From: Erysipelothrix urinaevulpis
GTDB lineage: Bacteria; Bacillota_I; Bacilli_A; Erysipelotrichales; Erysipelotrichaceae
Direction of reading: 5' to 3'
NCBI RefSeq assembly: GCF_009828835.1
Contig: NZ_WTTB01000003.1
Span: forward strand, 124,001 to 188,000
Length of the DNA stretch: 64,000 nucleotides
Position numbers and translations under genes: made by a program
Part shown: positions 28,931 through 56,154 of the stretch, one piece after another
Numbering within the stretch: position 1 is the first letter of the stretch
How the letters are laid out: every line of letters starts with the position of its first letter
The notes under the pieces: generated by a model
Database searches by the model: none
The model's input: only the letters and a program-made list of their open reading frames with translations
What the model was told of the DNA's origin: nothing

Positions 28931-29110
28931 AAATATCTCTATAAAAAATATTATCGTCACGTTCAAGCTTTAACTCCAAAAGGCAATGAAACTACATTAT
29001 CCTAAGCCTTCGCGACCTAGTCTGTTCAAACCAACTCCATAGTGTCTCCACTACTCTGCGGCAGTAATCCGTATCCTTTTGGTAGCCTCACCTACCGTTA
29101 TTCTATTGTC
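28931..29110 (-). ncRNA. M-box (ykoK) Mg2+ riboswitch
   Basis: On the minus strand the leader opens with GGTAGGTGAGGCTACC (29096-29081), followed by GGATACGGATTACTGCCGC, a GTGGAGACACTAT segment and later GTTTCATTGCC and GGAGTTAAAGCTTGAACG. These are the conserved blocks of the M-box class in order. The position, just before a terminator and mgtA, fits. By family knowledge, high Mg2+ favours the terminator. Recognised from memory of the consensus; not scored against a covariance model. Confidence 0.82.
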
Positions 29111-52796: not shown

Positions 52797-52800
52797 CACT

Positions 52801-52888
52801 GCAACGGAGGCAATAACACATCGCGCATTTGCTTCGTCACACAGCAACTTCCCATCTGCATGCACTTAACGCGTGTTATCTACTTTGC
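52801..52888 (-). ncRNA. Tetrahydrofolate riboswitch (THF-I, folT leader)
   Basis: On the leftward strand the leader reads GTAGATAACACGCGTTAAGTG, followed by ATGGGAAGTTGCTGTGTGACG, AAGCAAATGCGCGATGTG and TTATTGCCTCCG, closed by GCAA/TTGC. These are the conserved blocks of the class I THF riboswitch, with the long-range CGCGUUAAGUG and GAUGGG elements. A promoter TTGCTT-17-TATCCT (complement of 52926-52931 and 52903-52908) starts the RNA just ahead of it. It should lower FolT and Fhs synthesis when THF is plentiful. Confidence 0.92.
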
Positions 52889-52935
52889 TTGAACATGTAT
52901 AAAGGATAACAATATTCACCTTAATAAGCAATGAA

Positions 52936-53721
52936 TTATCTGTCACCTTTATCCAAAAATTGAATTAATTTCGATTTTTGAGTTATCGGTTTATCCTCAT
53001 CTCTAAAAACGAAATTAATACAATATCCTGCATATATAACCCAAGAAATAAACCAACCAGAAATTAAAAGAATCATAAACGACGCTAAAGGTCCATAAAT
53101 TGTTTGATAATTAGAGTATTCATTAATGTAGAAAAAGAAAATTCTTCCAAAGACAGCAATCGCTACCGATGAAAACACCGCGCCATACCAGACATCCTTA
53201 AACCCTGTATATTTGAACGATAACAAACGATAAAAAAGTAAAAAGAATATAAATAAAATCCAAGGAATAGAAAAGCGATTAATAAATGGAAAAAATCCAA
53301 TCACAAACGCTACAAGACCAACCCCAATAATAATAAAGACGAAGTAAATGATTGCTAAAATGCGTAAAAAGAAGTGACGTGTTTCAACCCCATCGTGTTC
53401 TGAACTTAAGAGCAAAAACGAATATACACTTTTTGACGCTAACCAAACACTTGCTCCCAACAGTGACACAATCAGCCACAGATTGCTCATATCACTTGCC
53501 GTTAAATACTCCACAAACGGAATCACAAGATCAGCTGGCACAAATCGTTGAAGAAAATCCATCAATTGGTCAACATTATAAACATAACGTCCCACAAAAA
53601 CGACGGCAATAATAATAAAGGGAGCAATCCCAGCAATAATTGAGTAAGCAAACGCATAGGTAAAAAGCGTCCCCTCATTTGACGTCATCATTTCCAAAAT
53701 TTTAATTAATTTGTCTTTCAT
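52936..53721 (-). CDS. YihY/BrkB-family inner membrane protein
   Basis: A 261-residue protein with about six membrane helices. Family features: EGTLFTYAFAYSIIAGIAPFIII near the N-terminus, ADLVIPFVEYL, GASVWLASKSVYSFL, and the C-terminal YGPLASFMILLISGWFISWVIYAGYCIN. Once mis-named RNase BN. Function unsettled; some members are linked to transport. Single gene; the promoter of folT lies in and after its 3' end. Confidence 0.9.
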   Translation of the reverse strand: MKDKLIKILEMMTSNEGTLFTYAFAYSIIAGIAPFIIIAVVFVGRYVYNVDQLMDFLQRFVPADLVIPFVEYLTASDMSNLWLIVSLLGASVWLASKSVYSFLLLSSEHDGVETRHFFLRILAIIYFVFIIIGVGLVAFVIGFFPFINRFSIPWILFIFFLLFYRLLSFKYTGFKDVWYGAVFSSVAIAVFGRIFFFYINEYSNYQTIYGPLASFMILLISGWFISWVIYAGYCINFVFRDEDKPITQKSKLIQFLDKGDR

Positions 53722-53794
53722 ATCGGTACCTCTTCCTATCTAATGTACCAAAAACCATTGGTTCTTTCCACTATCGCTTATTCCCACAAATTAA

Positions 53795-53817
53795 AAGACC
53801 AAGTTTAGCTTGGTCTT
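53795..53817 (-). terminator. Terminator behind the truncated glutaredoxin copy
   Basis: AAGACCAAG / CTTGGTCTT stem. It closely resembles the hairpin at 54109-54129 and probably is the original terminator of the glutaredoxin-like gene, now 1.26 kb away from the intact copy. Confidence 0.75.
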
Positions 53818-53821
53818 AAAG

Positions 53822-54055
53822 ATCGTATCCTTATTATATCTCATTTCTTTTTAATTTGGAAGATTACTCATTTTGGTGTTTTTTTAAGAATTCCACAACG
53901 TTTTCTGCAGATGTATCCCTCAAAACATCATCACCTGCAATTAAAACAGGTGTTGACATAATACGATGTTTTCGTACAAGTGTTATAAACTCTTTTTCAT
54001 TCTTTTGTCGGTGGATAACCTCAATAGAATCCTTATATTCATTGCCAAAACCCTT
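53822..54055. repeat. 234-bp direct repeat, left copy
   Basis: Aligns without gaps to 55083-55316 with 13 differences (about 94% identity by hand count). It covers the last 64 codons of a glutaredoxin-like gene and about 40 bases after its stop. Confidence 0.9.
53864..54055 (-). pseudogene. 5'-truncated copy of the glutaredoxin-like gene
   Basis: The frame is open for the last 63 or so residues (KGFGNEYKDSIEVIHRQKNE to KKHQNE and stop) and lacks the first 22 codons, including the CxxC site. In-frame TAA codons stand directly upstream, so it cannot be made. Most differences from the intact copy are silent or mild (K to Q, V to I, N to D), so it diverged while still selected, probably in another strain. 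Confidence 0.88.
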
Positions 54056-54103
54056 TTAAAGTTAATTTAATAGATTATAAATTAATTACCACGGTCGCTA
54101 AAA

Positions 54104-54129
54104 GCAAAAAACCAAGATAAACTTGGTTT
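54104..54129 (-). terminator. Terminator of the Abi-like gene
   Basis: AAACCAAG / CTTGGTTT stem followed by five to six Ts on the leftward strand, 47 bases after the Abi stop codon. Confidence 0.78.
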
Positions 54130-54175
54130 GCGCTGTTCGTTACTTGAACTTTTTACATATATAGTATAACTAATT

Positions 54176-55032
54176 TTACGTGTATATGTCAATGAATTTG
54201 TCACTAATTTTTAATTCATCAAACAACCTTCTATATTTTCTAGATTCTGGAGCATACCTCAGGGAGTTTTTTCTTACATTTCGGTACCGAATTAATATTT
54301 CAATACTATTCCTATGAGAAACACAATTCCTAATTTCTCTTAAAACTTTAAATCTTATCAGAAACTCACAAATATTACCTGTATTTAAATTTAATTCATG
54401 TTTTTTTAATGTTGTAAAAACCTCATTTTGTAAGTATAGATCAAGTCCAGATATTAATATTTCCCAATTCCCCAAATTTAAGTGATCAAAGAATACAAAA
54501 ATATCATCAGTATTTTTTAAAGCACCTAAAACAGATTTATACCAATAATCAACGTTAGAGAGTGTGAAATTTTTACCCAAAAGTGGACTGTTTTTTGCTT
54601 CATCACGACATTTTGTTAAGAAATCTTCTAAAATTTTTGAATTAACTATTTCTTTACCTTTTATTTTTTTGTTCAATAAGAATAACATGTGAAGAAATTG
54701 ATTTAAATTGACTCTCAAACACATCAATATTGTCACGTACGACAGGATAAGATCTTCTTTCCTCTTTATAAAACTCTAGAAATTGTGAAAATTCCGTTTC
54801 ATTTGGGTATTGATGCTTATTATTAGAATCTTTGTAGGTTATCTTTTTACCTTTTCTAAACTTTTGCGCAATTTTATGCTTAAAACGGTGTCACAACATT
54901 AACATAATTATTTTTCCACAAAATAACCTTAGCTTCTTCTTCCGAAATAACATTAAATCTAATTTTTTTGTTTGTATATAAATATCTTATAAGTTCGTCC
55001 ATACTTTTTGTACTTTTATATTGCTTCATCAT
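54176..55032 (-). pseudogene. Abi_2 (AbiD/AbiF)-family abortive infection gene, two frameshifts
   Basis: Three consecutive frames rebuild one protein of about 285 residues. Part A starts at ATG 55032 after GTGAGGGA (MMKQYKSTKSMDELI, ending VNVVTP). Part B continues FKHKIAQKFRKGKKITYK to SSHVILIEQK. Part C continues IKGKEIVNSKILEDFL to IDIYT and has the Abi_2 hallmark LREIRNCVSHRNSI. The breaks fall in homopolymers: one extra base in A4 at 54882-54885 and one missing base in the T7 at 54664-54670. Intact relatives cause abortive infection of phage. Either a dead gene, phase-variable, or two base-calling errors. Confidence 0.78.
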
Positions 55033-55082
55033 TCCCTCACTTTTAATGCTTGTCATATATACATCTATATTTAATTACTAAA

Positions 55083-55316
55083 ATCGTATCATTATTATAT
55101 CTCATTTCTTTTTAATTTTGAAGTTTACTCATTTTGATGTTTTTTTAAGAATTCCACAACGTTCTCAGCAGATGTATCCCTTAAAACATTATCACCAGCA
55201 ATTAAAACAGGTGTTGACATAATACGATGTTTTCGTACAAGTGTTACAAACTCTTTTTCATTCTTTTTACGGTGGATAACCTCAATAGAATCCTTATATT
55301 CATTGCCTAAACCCTT
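55083..55316. repeat. 234-bp direct repeat, right copy
   Basis: Partner of 53822-54055. It covers the 3' three quarters of the intact glutaredoxin-like gene and the bases after its stop. The repeats are 1,261 bp apart and enclose the Abi-like gene. Confidence 0.9.
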
Positions 55317-55382
55317 GTCCAAGAACTCATCCAAAACAATACATTTAGGACAGTTATCTTGCGTTAACATTTTTATTTTCAT
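55125..55382 (-). CDS. Glutaredoxin/NrdH-like thiol-disulfide protein (85 aa)
   Basis: A small thioredoxin-fold protein with the active site CPKC at 11-14, after the first strand KIKMLTQDN, and the cis-Pro in MSTPVLIAGD. Such proteins pass electrons to reductases or act as stress thiol donors. The start ATG follows a weak site (AGGAGTATAGGAAAA). Downstream of its stop the sequence departs from the left repeat copy, so the gene has lost its own terminator to the inserted Abi segment. Confidence 0.87.
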   Translation of the reverse strand: MKIKMLTQDNCPKCIVLDEFLDKGLGNEYKDSIEVIHRKKNEKEFVTLVRKHRIMSTPVLIAGDNVLRDTSAENVVEFLKKHQNE

Positions 55383-55548
55383 TTTTCCTATACTCCTTTT
55401 ACTTCAAGTATGCCATATCTTCAATGAGTTTTCTCTACAAATAACCGTGGTATAGCATTCCTTTATAGCAATAGATATTTTTGGGTTGCGCATTCATTTC
55501 ATTTTTAAGCAGGATTTGTTAATCTATAAGCATGAGAGGTGCAAAGAA

Positions 55549-56154
55549 ATGAATTACATATTTAAAGACAATAAAAGTGATAAAACACTCGTATTATTTC
55601 ACGGAACAGGAGGCGATGAAAAAGTATTATTACCGATTGCGAATCAAGTCGCGCCAAGCATGAATCATTTGTCATTGCAAGGAGAAATCGTATCGTTTGG
55701 AAAACGTCGTTTTTCAAAAGTTTCGCATCCTGACCAATTGGTTGATGAAGATGACTTACTATCAAGAGTTCCTGGCATTTTAAAAACAGTTGAAGACTTA
55801 AAAGAAAAGTATCAATTAGGTAAACTGTGGGCTTTAGGTTTTTCAAATGGATCTATGACTTTAACGGGCATGATTTTGACAGAAGAGACACCATTTGATA
55901 AAGTAATCTTACTAAGACCCCTTGATTTTAAGCAAGAATTTGAAGCTAAAAACTTGAGTGGCTTGGATATCTTAATCCATAGTGGTAAACACGACCCAGT
56001 CACACCATCTATTTCTGCTGTTCATTTAGAACAGAAGTTATTACGGTTAGGGGCACGCGTTAACCATAAAATTTACCCCCTTGATCATCGGATGAATATG
56101 AGTGAAATTAAGGATATAAAAGAGTGGTTTGATAAGGAGCTTGATAACAAATGA
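55549..56154 (+). CDS. Alpha/beta hydrolase (carboxylesterase/YpfH type)
   Basis: A 201-residue serine hydrolase. The oxyanion segment is LVLFHGTGGDE; the nucleophile is S99 in LGFSNGSM; the acid is D149 in SGKHDPVTP; the base is H180 in YPLDHRMN. This is the small phospholipase/carboxylesterase group with cytosolic members acting on esters. I start it at ATG 55549, behind GAGAGG, since the 21 residues upstream have no ribosome site. Its stop overlaps the next gene (ATGA). Confidence 0.9.
   Translation: MNYIFKDNKSDKTLVLFHGTGGDEKVLLPIANQVAPSMNHLSLQGEIVSFGKRRFSKVSHPDQLVDEDDLLSRVPGILKTVEDLKEKYQLGKLWALGFSNGSMTLTGMILTEETPFDKVILLRPLDFKQEFEAKNLSGLDILIHSGKHDPVTPSISAVHLEQKLLRLGARVNHKIYPLDHRMNMSEIKDIKEWFDKELDNK

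Follow-up and report, generated by a model that had tools for sequence, protein, structure and literature searches.

By what means small single-gene defence systems move when they have neither a transposase nor an integrase is an open question. It is raised by a locus in a 64,000-nucleotide stretch of Erysipelothrix urinaevulpis DNA (the window), where a broken Abi-like gene separates two copies of the 3' end of a glutaredoxin-like gene. The features of the locus are listed below, following the minus strand.

55125–55382, minus strand: intact glutaredoxin-like gene, 85 aa, whose 3' end is repeat copy P; weak thioredoxin/glutaredoxin profile matches; one orthologue each in 11 of 12 further genomes of the genus
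55080–55316, minus strand: repeat copy P, the last 63 codons and 45 bp of 3' UTR, fused to the intact 5' part of the gene
55094–55122, minus strand: promoter-like TTCAAA-17-TATAAT in the 3' UTR of copy P, directed into the abi gene; the scan that found it did no better than chance
54056–55079, no strand assigned: cargo segment X between the copies, 1,024 bp, outside the repeats
54880–55056, minus strand: N-terminal piece of the AbiF/Abi_2-like gene, 58 aa, stopping at a frameshift; similar by inspection to the start of the L016, L017 and L019 proteins
54176–54736, minus strand: C-terminal piece of the AbiF/Abi_2-like gene, 186 aa, with the HEPN R-x4-H motif RNCVSH
54109–54129, minus strand: cargo terminator hairpin, stem ACCAAG/CTTGGT
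53819–54055, minus strand: repeat copy D, a truncated 3' end (codons 23–85 and 45 bp) without a start codon
53795–53817, minus strand: native terminator of the glutaredoxin-like gene, adjoining copy D; the order gene, terminator, yihY is also found in nine other genomes of the genus
52936–53721, minus strand: yihY/BrkB-family membrane protein gene, the native downstream neighbour

The initial annotation described a gap-free direct repeat of 234 bp, about 94% identical, with its copies 1,261 bp apart. The repeat is real and measures 237 bp (53819–54055 and 55080–55316), with 94.1% identity, 14 mismatches and no gaps at that spacing. It is the longest direct repeat in the 10 kb examined, and a chance origin for a repeat of this length and identity is far beyond expectation. 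It spans codons 23–85 of the 85-codon gene (74%) and a further 45 bp of 3' UTR, ending where the terminator hairpin of the native locus starts. Copy P completes the intact gene. Copy D lacks codons 1–22, has no start codon, and reads into the native terminator and then yihY. The order on the minus strand is therefore glutaredoxin-like gene, 45 bp of UTR (to 55080), cargo, copy D, terminator and yihY. Promoter-like sites are not enriched, as 10 were found against 11.5 expected in shuffles. The cargo and native terminators have the stem ACCAAG/CTTGGT in common (54111–54127 and 53798–53814), and these are the only two such hairpins in the 64 kb. Alignment of the two terminators gave p ~0.01, and the common stem is either a coincidence or a duplicated terminator.

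An Abi_2-type gene had been reported between the copies. Its family assignment is supported, but it is not one open frame. The gene is spread over three frames with two single-base shifts, one at a run of four T near 54890 and one at a run of seven A near 54666. Both frameshifts are probably genuine, because long open frames cover most of the window (87% of it lies in 58 non-overlapping frames of 100 aa or more); sequencing error at the homopolymers is a possible source. The 186-aa piece scored 14.9 bits against Abi_2 (PF07751), under the Pfam cut-off of 25.6, and the joined 283-aa protein had no match in Pfam or PADLOC. The joined protein does match intact proteins of 271–276 aa in related genomes, one of which (L019) exceeds the Abi_2 cut-off at 47 bits, and it has the R-N-C-V-x-H HEPN motif (RNCVSH) as its homologues do. 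The assignment to Abi_2 is made on account of these homologues and the kept motif. Judged by its sequence, the cargo is an AbiF/Abi_2-like HEPN gene that is predicted to be a relic. AbiF is a toxin family under small-RNA regulation (PMC12373285). The homologues of the cargo belong to this family of RNA-regulated toxin systems and possess the R-x4-H motif, but the gene is broken here and no adjoining abiF RNA (RF03085) was recognised in 53600–55600.

The cargo segment contains no recombinase or integrase frame, as the initial annotation had stated. DNA closely matching it was not found in the other 12 genomes of the genus, and an apparent copy of its left end in three of them proved to be a 31-bp AT-rich similarity. 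No relatives were found when viral contigs, phages and plasmids were scanned with the Abi piece, or when genome contigs were scanned with the 85-aa glutaredoxin-like protein.

Comparison across the genus reveals the state of the locus without the insert. The glutaredoxin-like gene is absent from the one remaining genome of the 12, and in nine other species it is followed by its terminator and yihY with nothing in between. Thus the empty target is single-copy and uninterrupted in nine species, and in E. urinaevulpis the insert is bracketed by long direct repeats of the target sequence, both as in insertion with long target duplication. The layout matches such an insertion, with an AbiF cargo that is dead in this genome. 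A survey of the same gene for other cargo, suggested by the initial annotation, found none among the nine grx-yihY loci. Different inserts behind the gene in G004 and G007, where yihY is absent nearby, were set aside as the gene sits behind nrdE/nrdF-like genes in a different context. It is very improbable that the two copies are ancient tandem paralogues, one of which was truncated later, with the abi gene between them by coincidence. The truncated copy keeps its frame, as this explanation would have it, but none of the genomes in the genus carries the gene twice, the repeat takes in 45 bp of UTR without a gap and ends at the terminator, and the layout recurs around other Abi_2 genes.

Insertion with a long, variable target duplication has been described for restriction-modification genes (Nobusato 2000; Furuta 2010, as cited in PMC3874152, PMC1643837, PMC3031569). 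Those insertions are like the present one in that a defence gene without a recombinase lies between long direct repeats derived from the target, which vary in length and measure on the order of 100 bp. In contrast to them, the cargo here is an AbiF/Abi_2 HEPN gene rather than a restriction-modification gene, and the repeats lie at the 3' ends of host genes, stacked in one case. No such layout was stated in the titles or abstracts found in a literature search that linked abortive infection with restriction-modification, target duplication and direct repeats, which does not prove its absence from the literature.

The initial annotation saw a cassette in this arrangement of host gene 3' end, defence gene and truncated 3' end copy with no recombinase. 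The arrangement recurs at other host genes of the order, at two of which sister species have empty sites. In spoIVA of another genus (L026/L052) the last 225 bp (93.8% identity) are repeated beyond an intact Abi_2 gene, the 5'-truncated copy is joined to the native flank, and the orthologous loci of sister species are uninterrupted. In L082/L133 the target is an ABC-ATPase gene, and a copy of its final 519 bp (96.5% identity) lies beyond a four-gene cargo consisting of Abi_2, DUF6414, an AAA ATPase and one further gene, and the site is empty in the sister species. A second copy of the gene end, shorter and more diverged, lies about 170 bp past the 519-bp copy in L082 and, by comparison with G047, leads into the native flank. 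The stacked array is as follows.

L133:1779–7780: intact ABC-ATPase gene, four-gene cargo, 519-bp truncated copy, about 170 bp, shorter older copy, native flank

Successive insertions beside an intact gene would leave just such a nesting, in which the oldest end lies farthest off. An identity jump within the ABC gene was considered as a mark of an imported 3' end and rejected, since it is not clear-cut at silent sites. Shorter cases were found at leuS (L074/L077), where the insertion is common to two genera, and at rpsI (L085), where there is a third copy. Repeat lengths among the cases range from about 60 to 519 bp, and the breakpoints vary from case to case, as they do between the two L082 events. 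The segments enclosed by the repeats in the window, L026 and L082 contain no recombinase.

The elements e14 and phage 21 at icd are large and integrase-driven, and bring with them a replacement 3' end of the target gene. The present layout resembles theirs in the replacement 3' end and in a repeat of similar size; unlike them, it has no large integrase-driven element. It could be the remnant of a site-specific integrative element of this type, or a cassette moved by one in trans, with the integrase lost or located elsewhere. We consider this rather unlikely. Gene 3' ends are classic targets of integrases, the repeats at L040 and L067 are tRNA ends, and L080, L081 and L085 have nearly the same 1.3-kb Abi unit at rpsI ends, with an integrase-like frame near L080; this rpsI group looks more like the integrase case than the others do. 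Against it stand the missing recombinase, the lack of a third gene-end copy elsewhere in the genome, and the need for large elements to have shrunk to a single gene repeatedly and independently. Furthermore, the differences in breakpoint between cases and within L082, along with those in repeat length, seem a poor fit to one fixed integrase core, although the glutaredoxin-like gene itself offers a single event.

The rpsI-associated unit is near-identical (94–98% identity) in three genomes (L080:866–2208, L081:3674–4990 and L085:3596–4909). Each of the three lies next to an rpsI 3' end or to a duplicate of the rpsI tail (TTCTCAAAACGTTA in L080 and L081), in L080 with the integrase-like frame nearby. 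This unit is possibly a minimal non-autonomous integrative cassette.

The truncated copy in the window was initially held to have been imported from a diverged relative and not copied in place, on the basis of its mostly silent changes. Silent changes account for 6/9 coding differences between the window copies. If the copies had diverged in place with only P under selection, this share would have p ~0.03–0.13, depending on assumptions; the same model gives 0.007–0.08 for L082 and 0.28–0.56 for L026. A slight silent excess remains across the three loci. The outgroups of the window are too distant to polarise the differences between its copies, and the changes at L026 and L082 were polarised by sister species. 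Amino-acid changes make up 7/8 (L026) and 6/10 (L082) of the changes in the truncated copy, and silent changes make up 5/5 and 5/6, respectively, of those in the intact copy. The changes are thus mostly amino-acid changes in the truncated copy and mostly silent in the intact one, which places much of the divergence after insertion; on these counts the truncated copies in L026 and L082 have clearly decayed in place. The slight silent excess leaves a diverged donor possible and mildly favoured, not proven, but with these p values and with truncated analogues that decayed in place the argument from silent changes is weak by itself.

The same polarised changes, silent in a constrained copy and amino-acid changing in an unconstrained one, would be produced by a local duplication of the target at insertion. 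A staggered break might have been filled, or the gene end might have been duplicated in tandem and the abi gene inserted, after which two initially identical copies diverged in place. The 6-bp stem of the cargo and native terminators also agrees with this explanation, as the terminator was perhaps duplicated too. It is opposed by silent differences slightly above the model in the window and in L082 (p ~0.01–0.13), and by the L082 copy at the native flank, which is the most unlike the sister species (85.7%, versus 94–96% for copies P and D1). We regard local duplication as unlikely; the repeat copies may nevertheless have been identical at insertion. Gene conversion between the copies, as L074/L077 suggest, blurs the dating further. 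Copy D is the one joined to the native terminator and yihY, so if either copy was imported, it is at least as likely to have been the one continuous with the intact gene.

One-sided homologous capture fits these loci best because of the variable breakpoints, the absence of a recombinase, the single-gene cargo and the stacking beside an intact gene. Incoming DNA containing the end of the same gene along with a defence gene would pair with the resident gene, and the non-homologous end of the incoming DNA would join illegitimately inside it. The host gene would stay intact since the copy beside its 5' part provides a full 3' end, leaving the other copy as a start-less remnant. New cargo would always land beside the intact gene, and the old 3' end would be displaced downstream. 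In E. urinaevulpis the two frameshifts would have inactivated the cargo later. Taken as a whole, an explanation in which P keeps the host gene intact, D is a remnant, the mechanism is likely one-sided homologous capture and the cargo decayed afterwards is the best available, and in our estimate it has about an even chance of being correct. We infer a donor from a related lineage, and recombination between the copies would be expected to remove the cargo.

Displaced effector 3' ends in the type VI secretion (T6SS) arrays of Vibrio cholerae have been ascribed to homology-facilitated illegitimate recombination (PMC5361080). Those arrays likewise have a new module beside the intact gene and old 3' ends downstream in order of age. 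They differ in that the ends carry immunity genes of the same locus, whereas the target here is an unrelated housekeeping gene.

The recurrence at unrelated host genes, the empty sites in sister species and the one stacked array suggest a route in common with restriction-modification genes. The duplicated-gene-end layout appears to be one way in which solitary defence genes settle in chromosomes. Solitary AbiF-type toxin genes might even spread generally as single-gene cassettes that capture and re-supply host 3' ends, have no recombinase of their own and stack successively, with older ends downstream by age; we offer this extension tentatively and with some doubt. The loci found are concrete sites that could serve to tell homologous capture from target duplication and from the action of an integrase in trans.

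The frequency of bracketing repeats was surveyed around 101 Abi_2 genes of the order and 219 other genes in the same stretches, counting direct repeats that scored 45 bits or more within 1.2 kb. Such repeats bracket 13/101 Abi_2 genes and 3/219 neighbouring genes (p = 4e-5). The raw 13/101 overstates the case, as other structures contribute to it. The repeats at L040 and L067 are tRNA 3'-end repeats, that at L090 belongs to an element with an apparent integrase remnant, and those at L195, L214 and L216, together with some at L074, are hairpins resembling abiF RNA on both sides of the gene and not target duplications. Dispersed repeats account for part of the excess as well. Repeats that include the stop codon of the flanking gene, as classified by eye, were found at 5/101 Abi_2 genes (4 independent) and at 0/219 others (p = 0.003–0.009). 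A sample from outside the order had no significant excess (4/39 versus 3/54), and 3/29 AbiEii genes were bracketed, by short repeats only. Among the Abi_2 genes of the order the layout is therefore found in a minority and is not a rule, and it may not be specific to them.

Several minor observations were made along the way. The copies on both sides of the Abi_2 gene at L214:2834–3871, L195:1338–2373, L216:2708–3700 and L074:3815–4961 are short, near-identical and hairpin-like by eye, and the downstream copy in L214 is a sub-threshold abiF RNA (RF03085). Copies of an antitoxin RNA on both sides of its toxin gene may constitute a distinct layout. In the window, a near-consensus promoter (TTGACA-18-TATACT) lies at the end of the abi gene with a terminator about 35 nt beyond (54109–54192, minus strand), and together they form a possible small RNA candidate. 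The window also contains an M-box riboswitch (28946–29106) and a THF riboswitch (52800–52889), the latter upstream of a small membrane protein gene and a formate-tetrahydrofolate ligase-like gene.
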